Source of the DNA: an uncultured Sphingomonadaceae bacterium
GTDB taxonomy: Bacteria; Pseudomonadota; Alphaproteobacteria; Sphingomonadales; Sphingomonadaceae
Length of the DNA: 64,000 bases
Direction: 5' to 3'
NCBI GenBank assembly: GCA_947489315.1
Contig: CANLCX010000001.1
Span: forward strand, 499,501 to 563,500
How positions within the stretch are numbered: position 1 is the stretch's first letter; every line of letters begins with the position of its first letter. This document shows positions 38,425 to 48,188 of this stretch, in pieces. A program made the position numbers and the translations under genes. A model generated the notes under the pieces. It was not told where the DNA came from. It was given only the letters and a program-made list of their open reading frames with translations, and did no database searches.

Positions 38425-39882
38425 ATGACAACCACTTCCCCACGCCAGTCCTTGGCGCTATGCGATAGCCCGGCAGAGGCCGTCGCTCTTCTCGAAAAAC
38501 TCTACAAAGAACAAATTGATCTGATCACTGAACGTTTTGCCCGTTATGCAAAGGGCGATTTGGCCGTTGGTGACCGCGAGCAAGGCGTCTATCCGATGAT
38601 TTCGGTAGAAATTCCTGCCGCTCAGGCCACCGAGACCAGCAATCTGGCATCGGGTCGGATTTCGGATATCAACTGCTACAGCACCACGATCAGCCAACCC
38701 ACGCTCTATCGTCGTTATTTGCTCGATCAGCTGGAACGGATCAACCGCATCTTCACCGCGAAAATCCATGTCGGCCTGTCCGACACCCCCATTCCGCTCG
38801 CCTTTGCGATTGAAAATGCCGCTGGCGGTTTGGACCGGGAGCGCAAGGACGCGCTGCCCAATCATTTCCACACACCCAATTTGGTCAAGACCAATGACGA
38901 GATTGTCGATGGCGGTCAAATTTTTCAGGATGATGTCGACAGTGCGCTGTCGTTATTCACTGCCGAACGAGTCGATTATTCGCTGCACCGTATCCGCCAC
39001 TATTGTGCGACCGATCCCGAATATTTCCAACCCTTCATCCTGTTCACAAATTATCAGCGCTATGTTGACGAATTTATTGAATTTGGTCTGGAAGAAGTCA
39101 AATCCGGAAAGGCAGAAATGCTGGTTGAACCGGGCAATCGGGTCACTGGCGCAGATGGAAATCCATCATGCCCGCCCATCGCCAAACCACCGCAAATGCC
39201 AGCCTATCATCTCGTCCGCAAAGATGGCAGCCCCGGTGTTACGCTGGTCAATATGGGTGTCGGCCCGTCCAATGCGAAAACGATCACCGATCATCTCGCC
39301 GTCTTGCGTCCACATGTCTGGTTGATGATCGGTCACTGTGGCGCGCTGCGCCGGACGCAGCGACTGGGCGACTATGTTCTCGCCCATGCTTATTTGCGTG
39401 ACGACAATGTGCTGGACGATGTTCTGCCGCCGAGCATCCCGCTACCGACCATTGCTGAAGTGCAATTGGCGCTGACCAAAGCGGTGCAGGAAGAAACCGG
39501 CATTGACCAGTCTCAGCTCAAACAGCATCTGCGTACCGGAACAGTGGTCACCACTGGCGACCGCAATTGGGAGCTGCGCTTTGAGCAAATTGCCAAGCGC
39601 CTGAACCAATCTCGTGCCATCGCTATCGATATGGAATCAGCGACGGTGGCGGCCAATGGCTATCGTTACCGGGTGCCTTATGGGACCCTGCTCTGTGCTT
39701 CGGACAAACCGCTTCACGGCGAGATTAAGCTGCCAGGCATGGCAGATGCCTTTTATCAGGAACGGGTCGGGCAACATCTTGCTATCGGCTTGCGAACGAT
39801 TGATTTGCTGGCGAAAGAAGCGGATGCCGGTACGTTGCATTCCCGTAAACTACGCAGCTTTGGGGAACCCTTGTTTCGGTAG
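38425..39882 (+). CDS. amn: AMP nucleosidase
   Basis: Hydrolyses AMP to adenine and ribose 5-phosphate, a purine-salvage and energy-balance enzyme. The 485-residue protein has the long N-terminal domain and the phosphorylase-type C-domain: VTLVNMGVGPSNAKTITDHLAVL, MIGHCGALRRTQRLGDYV, and DMESATVAANGYRYRVPYG. Length and order match proteobacterial Amn. It is monocistronic, 120 bases before ompW. Confidence 0.94.
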   Translation: MTTTSPRQSLALCDSPAEAVALLEKLYKEQIDLITERFARYAKGDLAVGDREQGVYPMISVEIPAAQATETSNLASGRISDINCYSTTISQPTLYRRYLLDQLERINRIFTAKIHVGLSDTPIPLAFAIENAAGGLDRERKDALPNHFHTPNLVKTNDEIVDGGQIFQDDVDSALSLFTAERVDYSLHRIRHYCATDPEYFQPFILFTNYQRYVDEFIEFGLEEVKSGKAEMLVEPGNRVTGADGNPSCPPIAKPPQMPAYHLVRKDGSPGVTLVNMGVGPSNAKTITDHLAVLRPHVWLMIGHCGALRRTQRLGDYVLAHAYLRDDNVLDDVLPPSIPLPTIAEVQLALTKAVQEETGIDQSQLKQHLRTGTVVTTGDRNWELRFEQIAKRLNQSRAIAIDMESATVAANGYRYRVPYGTLLCASDKPLHGEIKLPGMADAFYQERVGQHLAIGLRTIDLLAKEADAGTLHSRKLRSFGEPLFR

Positions 39883-40002: not shown

Positions 40003-40671
40003 ATGTGTAAAACAGCGAAATTACTCGGCGCCGCAGTGGTGTTAGGCATGGCGATCACCTCTGTTCCGGCCTTTGCCGAGAAGGGTGACATATTGCTGCG
40101 CGCCCGGGTCATCAATGTGATGCCGAGCGAGGAAAGCAGCTCGATCTTGCCCGCCTTTCCCGGCGAACAGGTTAGCGTCGATAACAGCCCCGCGCCGGAA
40201 TTCGATATCACCTATATGGCGACCGATAATATCGGTTTTGAGTTGATTGCGGCGACCACCAAACATAGCGCCAGCGGCGTGACTGGAACGACCGGCAGTA
40301 TTGGCAAGCTTGCGAAAACATGGGTGCTTCCGCCAACCCTGACCGCGCAATATCATTTCGCGCCTGATGCGGCGATCCGTCCCTATATCGGTGCCGGTAT
40401 CAACTACACGATTTTCTACAATGAAAAGCCGACGAGAGATTTGGAGGCGGCGGTTGGCGATACCAAAGTGAACCTGAAAGACAGCTTTGGTTGGGCGTTG
40501 CAGGCCGGGATGGATATTCCGCTGAATGATCGAATTTCCCTGAACTTCGATGTCAAATATCTCGATATTGATACCACGGCGACCTTGCGCACGACCGATG
40601 CGGGAACGCAGCGTGTGAAGATCAATCTCGACCCGATCGTGGTCGGCGTCGGCCTTGGCATTAAGCTATAG
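40003..40671 (+). CDS. ompW: OmpW family outer membrane protein
   Basis: An eight-strand outer-membrane barrel of 222 residues that may pass small hydrophobic compounds. A signal peptide (AAVVLGMAITSVPAFA) is followed by GDILLRARVINVMP, the OmpW opening; PTLTAQYHFAPDAAIRPYIGAGINYTIFY and the terminal VVGVGLGIKL complete it. An AGAAGGA ribosome site precedes the ATG. In E. coli ompW is controlled by FNR, which fits the boxes upstream here. Confidence 0.92.
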   Translation: MCKTAKLLGAAVVLGMAITSVPAFAEKGDILLRARVINVMPSEESSSILPAFPGEQVSVDNSPAPEFDITYMATDNIGFELIAATTKHSASGVTGTTGSIGKLAKTWVLPPTLTAQYHFAPDAAIRPYIGAGINYTIFYNEKPTRDLEAAVGDTKVNLKDSFGWALQAGMDIPLNDRISLNFDVKYLDIDTTATLRTTDAGTQRVKINLDPIVVGVGLGIKL

Positions 40672-40824: not shown

Positions 40825-41820
40825 TTAACCGCCAACGCCCAGTGCCATCCCGGCTTCTCTAATCCGTTTCGCCTCCGCGCCATCATTCTTGAACGCGGCG
40901 AGACCATCCGCCATTGCCTTTTTGGCCTTTGCGGTTTGGCCTAATTGCTGGCGGCTGCGCATCAGCATGATCCAGCCATTGGCGTCATTGGGGTTGGACT
41001 GCAGCCGCTTGTCGAGCCCCTCGACCATGTTGGCGATCATCGCTTCCTGTTGGCCAGCGGGCAGGGCAGCGGCCTCCTGCATTTGCTCGCGGCTGGGACC
41101 GGGGATCGCTGCGGTTGCAACTTGCGGGCCATCTGTCGAGATGCCGCCAGTCGGTGCCGCTGGGGCGATCTTGGCGAGTCTTGCAGCGACGTCGATATTC
41201 TCTTTTTCAGCCACTTGTCCGATGACACGGCGAATATCGGCGGCATAGGGCGCATCGGCGGGTGTGTCTTCAAGCAGCGCAAACCAGTCGTTAATCGCGC
41301 CCTGATGATCGCCGGAAATATCTTTCTGTACCGCTAGGAAATAGCGCGCGCGCGGATCTGTCTTGTCGAGGGCGAGGGCTTTTTTGAATGCGTCGGCGGC
41401 GTCGGCAGGGACTTGTTGGCCGTCACTCGACATAACCAGCGCCTCACCCAGCATCGACCAATATTCAGGGTTTTTGGGATCGAGCGTCGTCGCACGTTTC
41501 ATCGCTGTGGCGGATTCGGCAAATTTCTGGGTCTCAAAATAGCTCCAGCCCAGCATCCGCCAGCTTTCGGCATCCTTAGGATCATTCTGAAGCTTTCTTT
41601 CCAGTCCGGCGATGACTTCATCGACACTGGGCGCTTGTTCGGATTCACCAGCGGCCGTTGTCGCTATGGTTTCCGTGTCCGATCCGTTCACATCCATGCT
41701 GCGATAGACTTGCACACCGACCGCGCCCACGGCCAGAATAGCTGCCGATATCAAGGCGATACGGCTAATATTCCCACCTGATTTTTTGGTCGGTTGTACT
41801 GGTTTTTCTGCTTCGCTCAT
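40825..41820 (-). CDS. TPR protein resembling CcmI/NrfG (cytochrome c assembly)
   Basis: A 331-residue protein with one N-terminal membrane helix (ISRIALISAAILAVGAVGVQVYR) and TPR repeats in the periplasm: DAESWRMLGWSYFETQKFAESATAMKRATTLDPKNPEYWSMLGEALVM is the C-terminal CcmI/NrfG type, and a second TPR group with NDANGWIMLMRSRQQLGQ lies at the end. In cytochrome c maturation such proteins hold apocytochrome c for haem attachment. It is divergent from the multihaem cytochrome operon 276 bases away, which strengthens the link, but no other ccm gene is in the window. Confidence 0.8.
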   Translation of the reverse strand: MSEAEKPVQPTKKSGGNISRIALISAAILAVGAVGVQVYRSMDVNGSDTETIATTAAGESEQAPSVDEVIAGLERKLQNDPKDAESWRMLGWSYFETQKFAESATAMKRATTLDPKNPEYWSMLGEALVMSSDGQQVPADAADAFKKALALDKTDPRARYFLAVQKDISGDHQGAINDWFALLEDTPADAPYAADIRRVIGQVAEKENIDVAARLAKIAPAAPTGGISTDGPQVATAAIPGPSREQMQEAAALPAGQQEAMIANMVEGLDKRLQSNPNDANGWIMLMRSRQQLGQTAKAKKAMADGLAAFKNDGAEAKRIREAGMALGVGG

Positions 41821-42096
41821 GTCTAAAAATCATTCCTCAACTAGTGCGACCCGGCTGATCGTTGTGCATTGTCGTAAACCGGGGCGCTTTGACAAGTATT
41901 TTGTTGTTCAATGTCGATAGCCTAAGCGGTAGCCTAAACTGTGATATTTTCCACTGGCTTATCAAAAGCTTTTTGGTAAGATGCTGGTAAGTGAAGTCTT
42001 TTGGGGTCGCGCTTAAGCCAAAAAAATGCTGCATTGGTCTGTGAAAACGCATGAGGGAGCGTTGGGCTGATATAGTAAAAGGGGGAAGAATAGCGC

Positions 42097-44547
42097 GTGG
42101 CTGATAAATTTCGAGTAGTGATCGTTGGATCTGGTCCGGCAGGCATGAGTGCCGCTGGCCGTGCTGCGCAATTAAAATTGAAACATGTGCTGCTCGAAAA
42201 GACCGATCATCTTTCCGATACGATCTATAAATATCAAAAGGGCAAGCATGTCATGGCGACACCCAGCCAGCTGGTGCTGCGCTCGGATATGGACTTTGAT
42301 GCGGGTAAGCGCGAGGCAATCCTTGGTACCTGGGACAAGCAAACCGAGGTTTGTGGTGTCAACGTACAGTATAATGCGGAACCGGTGAAGATCGAAGGCG
42401 AAGAAGGAAACTTCACCATCACCTTGAAAAATGGCGATACGGTTCTCGCAGAAACCATCGTCATGGCGATTGGAACGCAGGGCAACCCTAACCTGATGCG
42501 CTGTCCCGGTGGTGATAACAAGCTGGTGCAATATCAGCTCGATGATCCCGGCGAATATTATGACGAGCATATCACGGTAATCGGTTCCGGTGATGCCGGG
42601 ATTGAAAATGCGCTCGGTCTGGCGGCGGATGCGGCGCAGAATAATATCGTGACCATCCTCAATCGTTCGGCGGAATTTGCCCGGGCGAAGAAAGCCAATG
42701 TGAAGCTGCTGATGGAAGCAGGTGAGCAGGGCAAGGTGATGATCCGCAACGAGACCACGCCAGCGGAAGTCAAAGATGGCGAGTTGATCCTCGAAACCCG
42801 TGACGGTCAGGAAACAATCCCCTGCAACCGGATTATTGCGCGCATGGGCTCAGCCCCGCCGCGCAAATTTGTCGAGCAATGCGGGATTGAATTTACCAGC
42901 GAAGACCGCGAAGCCTATCCCAAGCTGACACCGGCTTTTGAAAGTACCAAGAAGGGCATTTACGTTATCGGCGCGCTGGCTGGCTATCCGCTGATTAAGC
43001 ACTGCATGAACCAGGGTTATGATGTCATTGAATTTATCAACGGCAACAAAGAGCTGAAACCCGCCGACGAACCAATCCTTGAGAAGAAATTTGCAGGCCT
43101 TCCCGGCGGCAAATCGGTCGATGAATGGCTCGAATTTTTCCGCGAGAAGGTTACAATCCTCAACGATCTCTCTCCCTTGCAGATGCGCGAATTCATGTTG
43201 GACAGCGAAGCGCGTGCCTATCGCAGCGGTGAAGTGATTTTTGAACGCAATGATTCTGGGTCGTCTTTGTTCACCATTGCCAAGGGCTCAGTGTTGGTTG
43301 AAGTGGACCCCAATGACAGTTCGAAAGTCATCCCGATTGAGGAAGGCTCTATTTTCGGCGAAGTTGGCCTGATCTCCGGCCGCCGTCGCGGCGCGACCAT
43401 CAGGTCGGCCGAAGACGTGATCGTGATAGAAGTGTCGCGCACGGCTGCACTGAAATTGCAGGCCTCTGTTCCTGCGGCCAAGCGCGCGATTACGCGCATC
43501 TCGACCGAGCGGCAATTACTACAAATGTTCGGCTCTGGCCTGACCAAGGAAGATATCGCCGAAGCAGTCGAAACCAGCGAGATCGTCAATGTCCGCGCGG
43601 GTGAAACGATCATAAACGAGGGCGATGATGGCAACGACATTTATGTGATCCGCGTCGGGTCTATGGTGGTTGAGAAGGAAATTGGCGGCAAGCCGGTATT
43701 CCTGTCCTACCTGCCAGCAGGTTCCTATGTCGGCGAAATGACCCTGATTGCTGGCGGTATGCGCACGGCAACGGTGAAGGCTGCGATCAAATCTGAAGTT
43801 ATCAAGATTCAGGGCGATGCGTTTAAGAAAGTGCTCGACGCCCATCCCGACCTGCTCCGCCGGGCCAAGAAAGACATGGCCGCTCGGCAGGATGTCAACG
43901 CCTTTATCGAAGCCAAGAAAGACAGTTTTTCCGGTGTTGTCGATTATTATTCCGGTGTCGCCAATTTCCTTGTCGATAATGGCATTGGTGAAGCGACCGA
44001 TGTGCTTCTCATCGACGAAAATCTCTGCGTCGGCTGTGACAATTGCGAGAAAGCCTGTGCCGACAGCCATGAAGGATTGTCCCGTCTCGACCGTGAGGCC
44101 GGACGGACCTATGCACATCTTCACGTTCCAACTAGCTGCCGTCACTGCGAGCATCCGCATTGCATGTCCGATTGCCCGCCCGATGCGATCCATCGTGGCC
44201 CCGATGGTGAAGTGTTTATCGATGACACCTGTATCGGCTGCGGTAATTGCCAGCGCTATTGCCCCTACGGTGTGATACGCATGGACAAGGTGCCGCCGAA
44301 GAAGCCTGGTATCCTCAATTGGTTGCTCTTCGGCTTTGGTCCCGGTCCTGGCGAAGCTGATAAAAAATGGGTGTCCGACAATAGCGATCCAGCGGTCGAG
44401 AAGCCGAAAAAGGCGATCAAATGCGATATGTGCGCGGGCATCAATGGTGGTCCCGCTTGTGTTCGCGCTTGTCCCACTGGAGCCGCGATCCGCGTTGCAC
44501 CAGAGGAATTCCTTACCGTTGCGAAGCTTGAGCAGGAGGACGCATAA
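42097..44547 (+). CDS. Flavoprotein/double cyclic-nucleotide-binding/multi-[4Fe-4S] ferredoxin fusion
   Basis: An 816-residue cytoplasmic fusion. Residues 1-340 are an FAD/NAD(P)-binding reductase-like domain with GSGPAG at 11-16 and a second nucleotide fold GSGDAG; there is no CxxC thioredoxin-reductase disulfide. Residues about 349-470 and 475-600 are two cyclic-nucleotide-binding domains, each keeping its phosphate cassette (FGEVGLISGRRRGAT and VGEMTLIAGGMRTAT). Residues 640-800 are a NrfC/DmsB-like ferredoxin with four cysteine sets (CVGCDNCEKAC, CRHCEHPHCMSDC, CIGCGNCQRYC, CDMC...CVRAC), enough for four [4Fe-4S] clusters. GTG 42097 has GGGGGAAG ahead. It heads the operon and would pass electrons to the membrane partner. 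Confidence 0.92.
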   Translation: MADKFRVVIVGSGPAGMSAAGRAAQLKLKHVLLEKTDHLSDTIYKYQKGKHVMATPSQLVLRSDMDFDAGKREAILGTWDKQTEVCGVNVQYNAEPVKIEGEEGNFTITLKNGDTVLAETIVMAIGTQGNPNLMRCPGGDNKLVQYQLDDPGEYYDEHITVIGSGDAGIENALGLAADAAQNNIVTILNRSAEFARAKKANVKLLMEAGEQGKVMIRNETTPAEVKDGELILETRDGQETIPCNRIIARMGSAPPRKFVEQCGIEFTSEDREAYPKLTPAFESTKKGIYVIGALAGYPLIKHCMNQGYDVIEFINGNKELKPADEPILEKKFAGLPGGKSVDEWLEFFREKVTILNDLSPLQMREFMLDSEARAYRSGEVIFERNDSGSSLFTIAKGSVLVEVDPNDSSKVIPIEEGSIFGEVGLISGRRRGATIRSAEDVIVIEVSRTAALKLQASVPAAKRAITRISTERQLLQMFGSGLTKEDIAEAVETSEIVNVRAGETIINEGDDGNDIYVIRVGSMVVEKEIGGKPVFLSYLPAGSYVGEMTLIAGGMRTATVKAAIKSEVIKIQGDAFKKVLDAHPDLLRRAKKDMAARQDVNAFIEAKKDSFSGVVDYYSGVANFLVDNGIGEATDVLLIDENLCVGCDNCEKACADSHEGLSRLDREAGRTYAHLHVPTSCRHCEHPHCMSDCPPDAIHRGPDGEVFIDDTCIGCGNCQRYCPYGVIRMDKVPPKKPGILNWLLFGFGPGPGEADKKWVSDNSDPAVEKPKKAIKCDMCAGINGGPACVRACPTGAAIRVAPEEFLTVAKLEQEDA

Positions 44548-45428
44548 TGGCTTCTGTTCCTGTCCCCGGCGGCGGCTCGAAAAAGAAAGTTGCTATGCAT
44601 GACGGCTTTCTGAAGCATGCCGGTTATCGCTGGCTGAAAATCGCGTCTTTTATTATGCTTATCTGCATCGTCAGCTATCTCTTCATCGACGTGTCGCCGC
44701 GCCATAATGGCGGTAGCTGGTATGGTTATTTGCTGGGCACTATTGGCGCAGGGTTGATCCTGTGGCTCACGATGCTCGGGGTCCGCAAACGGGCGATGAC
44801 ATCGGGGCAATGGTCGCTCAAAGCTTGGACATCAGCGCATATCTATCTCGGCCTTAGTCTCATTGTCATCGGCACATTGCATACTGGGTTCCAATTTGGT
44901 TGGAACATCCACACTGCTGCTTATGCGTTTATGATGATCGTGATCATCTCTGGAATAGTCGGGATCTATTTCTACGTGACCATCCCGCAGGCGCTTTCCA
45001 ATAACCGCGATGAGATGACCGAAACGCAGATGCTCGAAAGTCTTCGTTCGCTCGACCGGCAATTGCATGAAGCGGCGCAGCCCCTTTCAGCGGAACATGC
45101 CGCTTTGGTGTTGCAATCGCTGGAACAGGATCCTTTCGGCGGCGGCTTCCTCAAACGGGTGTCCGGAAAATATCCCAATTGCGCTACCCGCGCTGCGCAG
45201 GCTGATTTGCGCCGAGAACGCGCTTATCAGCCTCGCATGGGCGGTGACGATCCGCTCGATAAGGTCGATGCATTGCTGCAGAAAAAGGAGGCGACACTCG
45301 GCCGGGTGCGCCGCCATCTCAAATTGAAAGCCCTTTTGCAGGTCTGGCTGTTCATTCATGTACCCATGACTTTTGCTCTGATCGCGTCGCTGTCGGCGCA
45401 TATCATCAGCGTTTTCTTTTACTGGTAG
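44547..45428 (+). CDS. Histidine-rich integral membrane protein, possible b-type haem subunit
   Basis: A 293-residue protein with about five membrane helices: 31-49, 59-78, a third around SAHIYLGLSLIVIGTLH, a fourth TAAYAFMMIVIISGIVGIYFYV, and a C-terminal one (LLQVWLFIHVPMTFALIASLSAHIISVFFYW). His residues recur within or at the ends of helices (SAHIYL, TLHTGF, NIHTAAY, FIHVPM, SAHIIS), the pattern of membrane cytochromes b. A soluble 110-residue loop lies between helices 4 and 5. I do not recognise a named family. The start overlaps the previous stop by one base (TAATG). Confidence 0.82.
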   Translation: MASVPVPGGGSKKKVAMHDGFLKHAGYRWLKIASFIMLICIVSYLFIDVSPRHNGGSWYGYLLGTIGAGLILWLTMLGVRKRAMTSGQWSLKAWTSAHIYLGLSLIVIGTLHTGFQFGWNIHTAAYAFMMIVIISGIVGIYFYVTIPQALSNNRDEMTETQMLESLRSLDRQLHEAAQPLSAEHAALVLQSLEQDPFGGGFLKRVSGKYPNCATRAAQADLRRERAYQPRMGGDDPLDKVDALLQKKEATLGRVRRHLKLKALLQVWLFIHVPMTFALIASLSAHIISVFFYW

Positions 45429-45443
45429 GCGGGAGATAGTATC

Positions 45444-47312
45444 ATGACATTTATCGTTCGCCAGATTGCCGTAACTGCCGATGGCCGCGAGATTATCCGC
45501 GCCAATCCTTTTGAAGACGCTCAAATTGGCGTGGGCCGGAATGCCGCAAACGCGATCCACTTGCCCGACCTTGCCGTCAATCCTGATCATGCCGTCATTC
45601 GGCAGTTGGATGATGGTCAGATTGAAGTTGAGAGCATTTCGGGTCAGAAATTCTCGGTCGATGGTCGCGATAAAATGGCCGCGAAGATTGATCCCGCCAA
45701 AGGCGCAGAGCTGGGCTTTGGCGGTCATGTCATATCGGTTAGCCATGATTCCGACGGGATAGTTCTGACTGTTAAACGGGTTGAGGCGCTGTCCGATTCC
45801 GCGGAAGACCGCGAAGAGGGCGCGATATACACTTTGAAAGGCCTCCTCCCGGGAAAACGGATCAGCGCTTGGAGCTTTATCGGACTTGTGCTCGCGGCCT
45901 TCCTGATCTGGCCGATTTACACATGGGCGACTTACAAGGGAATCGAAGAGCGACCCGACGGTTTCCATGCCGATACGATGTGGTCATCAGGCAAGTTGAG
46001 CGAGGCCCATCATAGCCTCGAAGGTGATTGTCAGGCTTGCCATGTCGATGCCTTTGTGACGGTGACGGACAAGACTTGCCTCACCTGCCACGAAGATGAC
46101 GCGCATGATCACGCCGATAAAGAGCGTTTGTTGACCGCCGTGGGCGAACCGGAAGGTTTTGAAAAAGTGGGTGCGGCGTTTGCGTCCGCGTTCAACAAAC
46201 CACCGGGCAGGTGTGTCGAATGTCACACTGAGCATGAAGGCGAGGGTGCTATGCAGCCTACTGCGCAAAAATTCTGCGCGGATTGTCACGAAGGGATGGA
46301 CGGGCGCTTGACGGATACGAAGCTTGAAAACGCGTCTGATTTCGGAATTTCGCATCCGCAATTTCGTCCTGCCGTGCTGGTCCAGCCCGGCGGCAAAAAT
46401 CCGCCACGTAAGCGGGTTTCGCTAGATAAAAAGCCAGATGAATATAACGGTTTGAAGTTCCCGCATGACGTCCATCTTTCCAAAACTGGCGGGGTCGCTC
46501 AAATGGGAAGACGATTATCTGCGAAATATGATTTCGGCGATTCGCTGGCTTGCGCGGATTGTCATACGCCGGATTCCAATGGCGTACGGTTCGAACCGGT
46601 AGACATGAAAGAAGACTGTAGCATGTGTCACAGTCTGGCCTTTGAAGAGATTGGCAGCACGGTACGGACGTTGCGTCACGGCGAACCGGAAATGGTTCGC
46701 GCCGATCTGCGCGCCTATTATCGCTCCACCGGCCCATCGCGGCCGATTAACCTCGGCGGCATGAAACGCCGCCGTCCGGGTGCCGAAAATGACAACCGAG
46801 TAGCGAGCGATTACGCCCGCGCGGTCCAGTTCCGGCCAAGCCGAGCCAATTTGGCCATAGAGCAAGTCTTCTCGCGTGGCGGTGCTTGTTTCGACTGTCA
46901 CGGTGTCACGCCGCCAACGGCAAGAGGAAGGGTGGATTATGGCATAAAGCCTGTGACTCAAACTGATCGCTATATGCACAAAGGCTGGTTCAGTCACGAA
47001 GCGCACATCCAAGAGGATTGCACGAGCTGCCATGCTGCCACAACATCGGACAACGCGCGCGATTTGTTGTTGCCGGGTATCAAGACCTGCCGCGAATGTC
47101 ATGGCGGCGAGTTTCAGAAAACCGCCGATGTCCCATCGACATGCGCCATGTGTCATGATTATCATGCCGATGATGGCGCGCCTTGGTTGATCAAGGAGCA
47201 GCAAAAAGACAAACGCAAGAAGCCAGACAAAGTGGCAAATGACAATGACGCCTTGAAACCGTCTGATAAGCTGACAGTTAAGATACGAAAGCAAAAGATT
47301 GCCAGTCGCTAG
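45444..47312 (+). CDS. FHA-domain, single-helix decahaem cytochrome c
   Basis: A 622-residue protein. An N-terminal FHA domain (about residues 20-100) has the GRN turn and an NPDHAVI segment in place of the usual SRxHA; the phospho-Thr-contacting Ser is therefore Asn. One membrane helix at about 143-165 anchors it with the rest outside. From residue 196 to 571 there are exactly ten CxxCH haem motifs (CQACH, CLTCH, CVECH, CADCH twice, CSMCH, CFDCH, CTSCH, CRECH, CAMCH). The C-terminal 50 residues are Lys-rich. It would be the periplasmic electron outlet of the operon's complex. FHA and multihaem cytochrome fused in one chain is unusual. Confidence 0.9.
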   Translation: MTFIVRQIAVTADGREIIRANPFEDAQIGVGRNAANAIHLPDLAVNPDHAVIRQLDDGQIEVESISGQKFSVDGRDKMAAKIDPAKGAELGFGGHVISVSHDSDGIVLTVKRVEALSDSAEDREEGAIYTLKGLLPGKRISAWSFIGLVLAAFLIWPIYTWATYKGIEERPDGFHADTMWSSGKLSEAHHSLEGDCQACHVDAFVTVTDKTCLTCHEDDAHDHADKERLLTAVGEPEGFEKVGAAFASAFNKPPGRCVECHTEHEGEGAMQPTAQKFCADCHEGMDGRLTDTKLENASDFGISHPQFRPAVLVQPGGKNPPRKRVSLDKKPDEYNGLKFPHDVHLSKTGGVAQMGRRLSAKYDFGDSLACADCHTPDSNGVRFEPVDMKEDCSMCHSLAFEEIGSTVRTLRHGEPEMVRADLRAYYRSTGPSRPINLGGMKRRRPGAENDNRVASDYARAVQFRPSRANLAIEQVFSRGGACFDCHGVTPPTARGRVDYGIKPVTQTDRYMHKGWFSHEAHIQEDCTSCHAATTSDNARDLLLPGIKTCRECHGGEFQKTADVPSTCAMCHDYHADDGAPWLIKEQQKDKRKKPDKVANDNDALKPSDKLTVKIRKQKIASR

Positions 47313-47339
47313 AGGCGACATAAGAGAGGGGAAGCGCCC

Positions 47340-48188
47340 ATGCTATTGGCGCAGGTAACGGATATTCATCTGGGTTTTGACCCGGACAATCCGTCTGAAT
47401 TTAATCGCAAGCGTCTGGATCAGGCGCTTAAGGCCTTGCGCGATATGACGCCGCAACCTGATGTGCTGTTGGCGACCGGTGATCTGGTGGATCGTGGTGA
47501 TCAGGACAGCTATATCCGATTGGAAGAGGCTTTTTCAGACCTGCCCTTTCCGGTATATATGTGCCTTGGCAATCACGACTTGCGCGGTCCGTTTCGAAAG
47601 CAATTTCCTGATGTTCCGACAGCTGGCGGTTATGTTCAATATGAGATTGATGACGGCCCGCTGCGTCTGCTGTTTCTCGATACGTTGGAAGAGGGACGTC
47701 ATGGCGGTGCTTTTTGTGATGTTCGCGCGCAATGGTTGGCCGAACGGCTTGCCGAGAAACCGGATAAGCCGACGCTGTTGATATTGCATCATCCGCCGGT
47801 GGAATCCGGTATAGCGTGGATGAATACCGATCCCCGCGAACCATGGGTGTCCGTGCTGGCAGACACAATGGCGGGCCATGACCAGATTAAAGGCATGATC
47901 ACCGGCCATCTGCACCGCAATATATCCACCTCTTTTGAAGGGACGAGCCTGTCCATCTGTGCCTCGACCGCACCGCAAGTCGCGTTTGATCTGGAACCGA
48001 TAGACCCGGAAAACCCCGATGGCCGCAATATGATCGTGGCCGATCCGCCCTCCATTGCGCTGCACTGGTGGAATGGCAAGCAGCTGGTTAGCCATTTCGA
48101 GACGGCAGAGGAGCATGTGATGCTCGCCCGCTATGACGAAAATTTGCAGCCGCTGGTGCGGGCTTTGCTGGCGGAACGGCCGCAGTAA
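47340..48188 (+). CDS. Class III cyclic-nucleotide phosphodiesterase-like metallophosphatase (CpdA/Icc family)
   Basis: A 282-residue calcineurin-type phosphatase with every metal motif in order: TDIHLG, ATGDLVDRG, CLGNHDLRG, LILHHPP and TGHLH. The spacing fits the CpdA/Icc group, whose best-known reaction is hydrolysis of cAMP to AMP. It follows the cytochrome gene by 27 bases, with the AGAGAGGGG ribosome site in the gap, so it belongs to the operon whose first gene has two cyclic-nucleotide-binding domains. Activity toward cAMP is inferred. Confidence 0.85.
   Translation: MLLAQVTDIHLGFDPDNPSEFNRKRLDQALKALRDMTPQPDVLLATGDLVDRGDQDSYIRLEEAFSDLPFPVYMCLGNHDLRGPFRKQFPDVPTAGGYVQYEIDDGPLRLLFLDTLEEGRHGGAFCDVRAQWLAERLAEKPDKPTLLILHHPPVESGIAWMNTDPREPWVSVLADTMAGHDQIKGMITGHLHRNISTSFEGTSLSICASTAPQVAFDLEPIDPENPDGRNMIVADPPSIALHWWNGKQLVSHFETAEEHVMLARYDENLQPLVRALLAERPQ

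Follow-up and report, generated by a model that had tools for sequence, protein, structure and literature searches.

Candidate inner-membrane half of a PCC4-like electron conduit with paired cyclic-nucleotide-binding domains in an uncultured Sphingomonadaceae bacterium

This report concerns a block of four genes, P1 to P4, in a 64,000-nucleotide stretch (the window) of contig CANLCX010000001.1, positions 499,501 to 563,500 of the forward strand, from an uncultured Sphingomonadaceae bacterium with a genome of 3.88 Mb, whose nearest cultured named relatives among the matches listed are Parasphingorhabdus and Sphingorhabdus. On balance, we think that the products of P1, P2 and P3 probably make up the inner-membrane half of an electron conduit across the cell envelope, of the type termed PCC4 (porin-cytochrome complex 4), which would carry electrons from NAD(P)H inside the cell to an outer acceptor and would be gated by a cyclic nucleotide. 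All four genes lie on the plus strand, and their open reading frame (ORF) coordinates, stop codons included, bear out the spacings of -1, 15 and 27 bases given by an initial annotation of this DNA. Every domain that it named was also found in Pfam, NCBIfam and PDB matches and motif counts, the FHA domain being weak in the window sequence alone. Its reading of the block as an electron conduit has good support, to which the haem-b histidine pattern of P2 and a set of outer-membrane partners described below both add.

P1 (42097–44547, 816 residues) unites a flavoprotein, two cyclic-nucleotide-binding domains and a four-cluster ferredoxin in one chain, as judged from Pfam, NCBIfam and PDB matches and from conserved residues. 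Pfam places Pyr_redox, two cNMP_binding stretches and Fer4 domains in it; TrxR/YpdA-like enzymes, PKA regulatory subunits and HycB-like ferredoxins are its PDB matches, and it matches PF13247 with an E value of 4.7e-11. The flavoprotein part covers about residues 5–307 (plus strand), and P1 has two GxGxxG/A motifs. The first cyclic-nucleotide-binding domain, matched by cNMP_binding, spans 43219–43491 (plus strand, limits approximate) with the cassette FGEVGLISGRRRGATI, and the second spans 43585–43842 (plus strand; PF00027 over residues 497–582) with the cassette VGEMTLIAGGMRTATV. The phosphate-binding cassette of cyclic-nucleotide-binding domains carries a glutamate and an arginine. Both residues, the glutamate as part of a GE pair, are present in both P1 cassettes in 16/16 sequences; here and below, counts out of 16 refer to alignments of 16 diverse family sequences, reaching down to about 43% identity for P1. 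The ferredoxin part (44005–44532, plus strand, about residues 637–812) contains 16 cysteines whose columns are likewise kept in 16/16. At least 16 cysteines also occur within the last 240 residues of all 72 P1 ORFs longer than 780 residues among the named loci, a set made up of the best 80 of at least 585. Judged from its fold, P1 would take its electrons from NAD(P)H. Three class III cyclase domains, all above cut-off, are encoded in the genome, and a cyclic nucleotide is therefore expected in the cell; the ligand of P1 would be cyclic AMP (cAMP) or cyclic GMP (cGMP).

P2 (44547–45428, plus strand, 293 residues) appears from its His/Trp motifs, loop charges and model helices to be a five-helix di-haem cytochrome b-type protein. 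At E<=0.001 the window P2 matches nothing in Pfam or NCBIfam. It had been called His-rich in the initial annotation and does contain 11 histidines, but it is better described as di-haem b type, since four of these belong to two W-X3-H-X13-H helices. This motif occurs twice in 16/16 relatives, where H98, H112, H122, H271 and H285 are invariant; within the pairs H98/H112 and H271/H285 the histidines are 13 apart, and a tryptophan lies four residues ahead of the first histidine. An SGXXG motif is present in 14/16 (L049 and L054 lack the serine), and the full motif string including SGXXG is found in 78 of the 80 named P2 proteins. Model helices and loop charge together give five transmembrane segments, where simple hydropathy gave four. 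The charges fit an inside N-terminus, with an Arg-rich loop 2 and a long loop 4 in the cytoplasm, and none of the 16 sequences has a lysine or arginine in loop 3 or at the C-terminus. These loop charges would orient two parallel helices so that H98 and H271 are near the cytoplasmic face of the membrane, and H112 and H285 near its periplasmic face. H98/H271 and H112/H285 are thus the likely haem ligands in a two-haem b pattern. The cytochrome b561 model PF01292 (Ni_hydr_CYTB) matches 15/16 P2 sequences weakly (best 1.4e-5) and PF01794 matches 4/16 (best 0.0013), while comparison of the P2 sequence with the PDB returned nothing useful, either as a single sequence or as a profile. A structure model with a predicted local distance difference test (pLDDT) score of 67 makes the helices visible and is too loose for judging haem geometry.

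P3 (45444–47312, plus strand, 622 residues) consists of an FHA domain (about residues 1–105), one transmembrane helix (residues 140–158) and a decahaem cytochrome c part with CxxCH sites from residue 196 to 571, an assignment made from the alignment of 16, Pfam, a PDB profile and hydropathy. In the window sequence the FHA match is weak (Pfam E 0.0093, 16.8 bits against a cut-off of 20.7); across the family it is found in 16/16 members at E<=1, with a best value of 2e-6, and the family profile matches GarA in the PDB at 8.4e-6. The haem part matches 3ov0, a "cytochrome c family protein" that we take to be the Geobacter dodecahaem GSU1996, at 1e-16, and there is a weak match to HmcA (36.4 bits against a cut-off of 400). 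All 76 P3 ORFs longer than 520 residues among the named loci have ten CxxCH sites, and ten haem sites are present in 16/16, two of these proteins having one CX4CH. The initial annotation had proposed to ask whether ferredoxin and haem counts are held in relatives; the 16 ferredoxin cysteines and the ten haem sites both are, throughout the 16 sequences. The two proteins with CX4CH in place of CX2CH are encoded at L054 6425–8143 and L055 10004–11653, both in genomes with a fused P1-P2. Phosphothreonine-binding FHA domains have a serine in an S-R-x-H loop. In P3 the GR of this loop is kept in 16/16 and the serine is absent from the window protein and from 15/16 in all, L055 alone having it; the domain would therefore have the FHA fold mostly without the usual phosphothreonine contact, and for the same reason the idea of P3 as a partner of a Ser/Thr kinase was mostly dropped.

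The P1-P2-P3 part of the block is conserved as a unit. In a draw of 398 Pseudomonadota genomes, P1 was found in 15 (E<=1e-100; the window and L043–L056) and P2 in 20 (E<=1e-8), and all 15 are among the 20. P1, P2 and P3 occur together and in order in each of the 15, with P1 and P2 fused into one chain in L054 and L055. The five other P2 matches (L057–L061) are weak, at 34–44 bits, and adjoin other multihaem cytochromes. Among 60 relatives, own genome included, P1 is present in 33 at the same threshold; 32 of the 60 belong to the genus, and 31 of these hold P1, the genome that lacks it being 89% complete. The order P1-P2-P3-P4 on one strand is found in 72 of the 80 named loci, although P1 is cut by the contig start in four of them (L071, L097, L131 and L135); in the remaining 8 a contig end falls within or beside the block. 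The four-gene order exceeds chance expectation. P2 was also found on 12 large Sphingobium replicons listed as plasmids. A phage origin was considered and rejected, as P2 had no relative on a viral contig and neither P2 nor P3 matched PHROG.

When the genome was searched for other cytochrome c7-type proteins, a second locus came to light 130 kb past the block; it encodes a tetrahaem c554-like protein, an HbpS-like lipoprotein, a barrel-like protein of 728 residues and a decahaem protein of 1390 residues, hereafter the outer set. The 1390-residue protein combines ten CxxCH sites with LVIVD repeats, and ten CxxCH were counted in all 15 outer decahaem proteins looked at. Lipobox-like starts are present in five lipoprotein sequences. 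The 728-residue protein has no Pfam match at E<=0.1, and the one match of the MtrB_PioB model in this genome is below threshold and lies elsewhere. A C-terminal aromatic residue is found in 11 of 12 rows of its family alignment, row 12 being a wrong ORF, and we regard the protein as a putative porin. In the sample of 398 the barrel is present in 12 genomes and the outer decahaem protein (E<=1e-50) in 11, all of which hold P1. Such co-occurrence of the barrel would arise by chance with a probability of 1.6e-20, kinship being ignored, and of 4e-8 when just the 4/4 genomes outside the window's family are counted. Within the genus, 29 of 32 genomes and all 24 good ones have the barrel, which stands apart from the block in those whose coordinates were compared. 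Elsewhere the two gene sets can be close together. In 25 of 100 loci (the 80 named and 20 others) the neighbourhood of the block includes homologues of at least one of the four outer-set genes, and G360 contains a single-strand run of P1, P2, P3, P4, tetrahaem, lipoprotein, barrel and decahaem genes. Similar same-strand runs are seen in G432, without P4, and in G424, without P4 and with the tetrahaem gene not found, while in G213 the run reaches the barrel gene at the contig end.

A further observation concerns a very long, repetitive Gly/Ala-rich protein with the look of a secreted exoprotein, which is encoded beside conduit genes in 14 of the 100 loci; examples are L045, L101, L103, L104, L106, L110, L117, L120, L123, L130, L133 and L136. 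Its gene also adjoins the outer set in L164 (31851–36840 and 10712–12391), where the annotation ShlB/FhaC/HecB (two-partner secretion) is given to a gene upstream of the block. The protein could form a surface filament linked to the conduit.

P4 (47340–48188, plus strand, 282 residues) is a calcineurin-like phosphoesterase of cyclic-nucleotide phosphodiesterase type by Pfam Metallophos, metal motifs and NCBIfam. Its metal motifs are DxH, GDxxDxG, GNHD, HHP and GHxH. Both of its nearest NCBIfam models score under cut-off, SpdA with 133.7 bits (400) and CpdA with 85.1 bits (225), so that P4 falls short of the CpdA 3',5'-cAMP phosphodiesterase model although the metal motifs are present. The initial annotation had given the phosphodiesterase the task of resetting the gate, a claim that now looks weak: P4 directly follows P3 in 8 of the 15 P1-holding genomes of the phylum sample, but in L050 it comes only after a further 4.7 kb, and in six (L051–L056) the stretch that was fetched yielded no P4, L056 showing only 0.7 kb beyond P3.

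Taking the domains, cofactor motifs and topology signals together with the conservation of the block, the co-occurrence and the partial contiguity with the outer set, we infer the following path, in which cofactor occupancy, electron direction, gating, the role of P4 and the terminal acceptor are all predictions. In the cytoplasm, NAD(P)H would reduce the flavin adenine dinucleotide (FAD) of P1, from which electrons would pass through its four [4Fe-4S] clusters to the cytoplasmic-side and then the periplasmic-side haem b of P2. The ten haems of P3, which one helix would anchor in the inner membrane with the FHA domain in the cytoplasm, would then deliver them to the outer set (tetrahaem c554-like, barrel-like and decahaem-LVIVD proteins and the HbpS-like lipoprotein) and so to an outer acceptor. 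The two cyclic-nucleotide domains stand between the flavin and iron-sulfur (Fe-S) domains and would probably open or close that step, and P4, where present, would lower the nucleotide locally. We prefer outward flow because the flavoprotein sits at the cytoplasmic end. Whether a cyclic nucleotide acts directly on the electron-transfer chain, gating a wire from the inner membrane to the surface in what would be the first respiratory-type conduit so controlled, is a more tentative matter; we put it forward as a possibility for aerobic sphingomonads and other Pseudomonadota. The gate of the initial annotation stays a prediction, one that we favour on the ground that GE and R are retained by both phosphate-binding cassettes in 16/16.

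Several observations weigh against this proposal. At the entry, the NADPH-type Arg motif of P1 is kept only in part, and the donor would therefore be either NADH or NADPH. G060 has a second, stand-alone P1 homologue of 825 residues (L168 7485–9959) with neither P2 nor P3 beside it within the 17 kb fetched, and P1 may therefore also serve other partners. The P2 model found no fold match in the PDB (best E 0.24), and a barrel model of 17 strands, made from a 445-residue partial homologue, has a pLDDT of 37.5 and is too poor for use. P4 is outside the conserved core. With respect to splitting of the block, which the initial annotation had named as a finding that would tell against it, P4 does split off and G060 has its second P1 copy, but P1-P2-P3 is unsplit in 15/15. 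The outer set is also incomplete in places: the whole G213 genome gave no match for the outer decahaem protein; G060, G093 and G212 have the block with no detectable barrel or outer decahaem protein (the G060 contig stops 0.7 kb past P3); G001, G002 and G015 (80–89% complete) hold P1 without a barrel match; and G029 (89% complete) has a barrel without a P1 match. Since there are genomes with the block and without the barrel, the outer set is not universal.

Published work proposes flow in the opposite direction. The same hardware could run inward: an outer donor, for example Fe(II) or Mn(II), would feed the porin-cytochrome set, and the electrons would end on quinone or, at an energetic cost, on NAD(P)+. 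In the parts of their paper that describe PCC4, He, Barco, Emerson and Roden (2017, PMC5566968) drew it in this way, from an outer donor to quinone, found it in Fe(II) oxidisers and drinking-water-filter bacteria and argued that di-haem b proteins of the P2 kind may meet quinone. An NAD(P)-type flavoprotein and four Fe-S clusters at the cytoplasmic end, however, suit a reductant inside the cell. Electron flow inward to NAD(P)+ is moreover uphill and against the membrane potential, which counts against this alternative, and we regard it as unlikely. A related question is where an outward chain would end. It might stop at a specific periplasmic or outer-membrane reductase, for iron, haem iron, selenite or tellurite, or a sulfur or nitrogen compound, with the HbpS-like lipoprotein as substrate binder, instead of in open extracellular transfer. 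The HbpS-like domain of the lipoprotein, the c554-type match of the tetrahaem protein and a distant match between the outer decahaem protein and ExtM, which belongs to operons for selenite/tellurite reduction (68.3 bits, the cut-off being 800), are in keeping with this. In the outer decahaem protein of the window genome, on the other hand, a histidine follows every C-x-x-C and no CxxCK-type site was seen, and the linkage of a barrel-like protein in 12/12 genomes suggests passage across the outer membrane. We find such a specific end point rather doubtful.

The gate has a rival of its own, in which the conduit is ungated: the cyclic-nucleotide domains would have a structural role, and P4 would be a phosphodiesterase of metabolism that is simply cotranscribed. 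That P4 is contiguous in 8/15 and was missing from the fetched stretch in 6, and that it scores under the SpdA and CpdA cut-offs, agrees with this. Retention of GE and R in both cassettes down to about 43% P1 identity, by contrast, would be needless for a mere spacer, and we hold an ungated conduit to be rather improbable. Much less credible still is that P1 is a disulfide or bacillithiol reductase of the YpdA/TrxR family with incidental neighbours. YpdA is indeed the best NCBIfam match of P1, over the flavin part, yet at 118.4 bits it is far under the cut-off of 339.9. No C-x-x-C is present in the flavin part of the window P1, so that it cannot be counted among TrxR-type disulfide reductases. 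YpdA has a cysteine in its first GxGxxG loop; there is none in the first GxGPxG loop of P1 in 16/16 sequences, the window protein reading GSGPAG. Finally, P2 and P3 come after P1 in all 15 sample genomes.

Upstream of the block, ccmI (40825–41820, minus strand), which encodes a TPR protein of CcmH/CycH type for cytochrome c maturation (Pfam TPR_CcmH_CycH, 1e-25), diverges from P1 and shares its promoter region; a ccmI homologue lies upstream of the block in 53 of the 80 named loci. In this region an upstream alignment points to a CRP-like half-palindrome, TGTGA-N6-CCACTG (41940–41956, plus strand). From its centre, TAAGAT (41977–41982) begins 29.5 bases away, an offset that is the geometry of class II promoters activated by CRP/FNR-type proteins. 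The string TGTGATATTTT(G/C)CACTGG and a TAAGAT-like -10 element are largely kept when the upstream region of the window is aligned with those of 19 congeners (20 in all), with exceptions: L014 and L015 depart, and L014 and L020 have TAAGGT. The half-palindrome pattern, which was picked after the site had been seen, is expected 0.06 times per window and was found once. The full CRP consensus with 2 mismatches was found 29 times in the window against 21.5 expected, which is not a clear enrichment, and GGGTCGCG, present in both promoter regions, is at chance level there (4 found, 3.4 expected). A CRP-type activator is thus a weak candidate for 41940–41956. Beyond ccmI lie a gene for an OmpW-family porin (40003–40671), with a homologue near the block in 4 of the 80 named loci, and, 2.2 kb from the block, one for an AMP nucleosidase (38425–39882; 652 bits against a cut-off of 307).

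Sphingomonads are regarded as aerobes and are not known to export electrons. Yet the barrel is present in 24/24 good genus genomes, P1 in 31/32 and the block in many named sphingomonads. If our proposal is true, the envelope of common soil and water bacteria carries an unstudied wire that is coupled, at its cytoplasmic entry, to NAD(P)H and to cyclic-nucleotide signalling. Its overall arrangement can be likened to that of MtrCAB-CymA of Shewanella and of MtoAB/PioAB, where an inner-membrane donor, a periplasmic multihaem protein and an outer porin with a decahaem protein act together, except that CymA draws its electrons from quinol, without a flavin and Fe-S chain. Hmc-type complexes of sulfate reducers resemble the block in having cytoplasmic Fe-S, membrane haem b and periplasmic multihaem c components, but they have no flavin, cyclic-nucleotide or FHA parts. 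The NOX/ferric reductase domain (PF01794) and prokaryotic cytochrome b561 (PF01292) are, as P2 appears to be, membrane two-haem b proteins; the flavin in our case sits in a separate TrxR-type chain, with Fe-S clusters between. HX13H pairs also occur in the ferric reductase domain (PMC5566968).

The closest known system is found in that same paper, in which He et al. proposed two putative porin-cytochrome complexes, PCC3 and PCC4, in silico. As described in its main text, PCC4 Subgroup II combines a five-transmembrane inner-membrane protein, which has two WX3HX13H motifs and SGXXG on the fourth transmembrane segment, with a porin and three periplasmic cytochromes of 4, 5 and 10 haems; directly before the inner-membrane gene stands a pfam13247 Fe-S gene (PMC5566968). 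P2 corresponds to the inner-membrane protein, with two WX3HX13H in 16/16, SGXXG in 14/16 and five transmembrane segments; P1 matches PF13247 and lies directly upstream, its stop codon overlapping the start of P2; tetrahaem and decahaem cytochromes are present, and the 728-residue barrel-like protein may serve as the porin. Even the fused Fe-S/inner-membrane gene noted there has its counterpart in L054 and L055. The haem counts differ: in place of 4, 5 and 10 there are here 4, 10 (with FHA) and 10 (with LVIVD), and neither gene set was seen to have a pentahaem gene next to it, no search for one having been made in the remainder of the genome. Set against that main-text description, we therefore call the system PCC4-like and not PCC4. 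PCC3 also shares the inner-membrane motifs with P2: the weak P2 relatives in L058 and L061 carry them, precede ORFs with 24 and 21 CxxCH, respectively, and look like PCC3. Haem numbers in PCC3 are far larger in its published description (PMC5566968), and a simple cysteine pattern revealed no Fe-S ORF beside L058 or L061.

The initial annotation had called the complex undescribed. This is right only in part: PCC4, as published in silico in 2017, already has an inner-membrane protein with the P2 motifs, an Fe-S gene before it and a porin with multihaem cytochromes. In the main text of PMC5566968 the terms "cyclic nucleotide", "FAD" and "ferredoxin" occur 0 times each, and its passages on PCC4 name neither a phosphodiesterase nor an FHA domain nor an HbpS-like lipoprotein. 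Part of the make-up of P1 may already be drawn in its supplement, where domain architectures are shown. Full-text literature searches, which mostly miss subscription papers, found no paper with the combined architecture. Flow is proposed to be inward for PCC4 in that paper and outward is preferred here, and the direction question of the 2017 model (PMC5566968), as set out in its main text, becomes testable. If the proposal is true, the PCC4-type complex gains a defined cytoplasmic entry and second-messenger state is linked directly to electron export. We thus read the system as an uncharacterised PCC4-like conduit, whose new feature in relation to PCC4 would be an entry module that combines a flavin with four Fe-S clusters and two intact nucleotide sites on a single chain.

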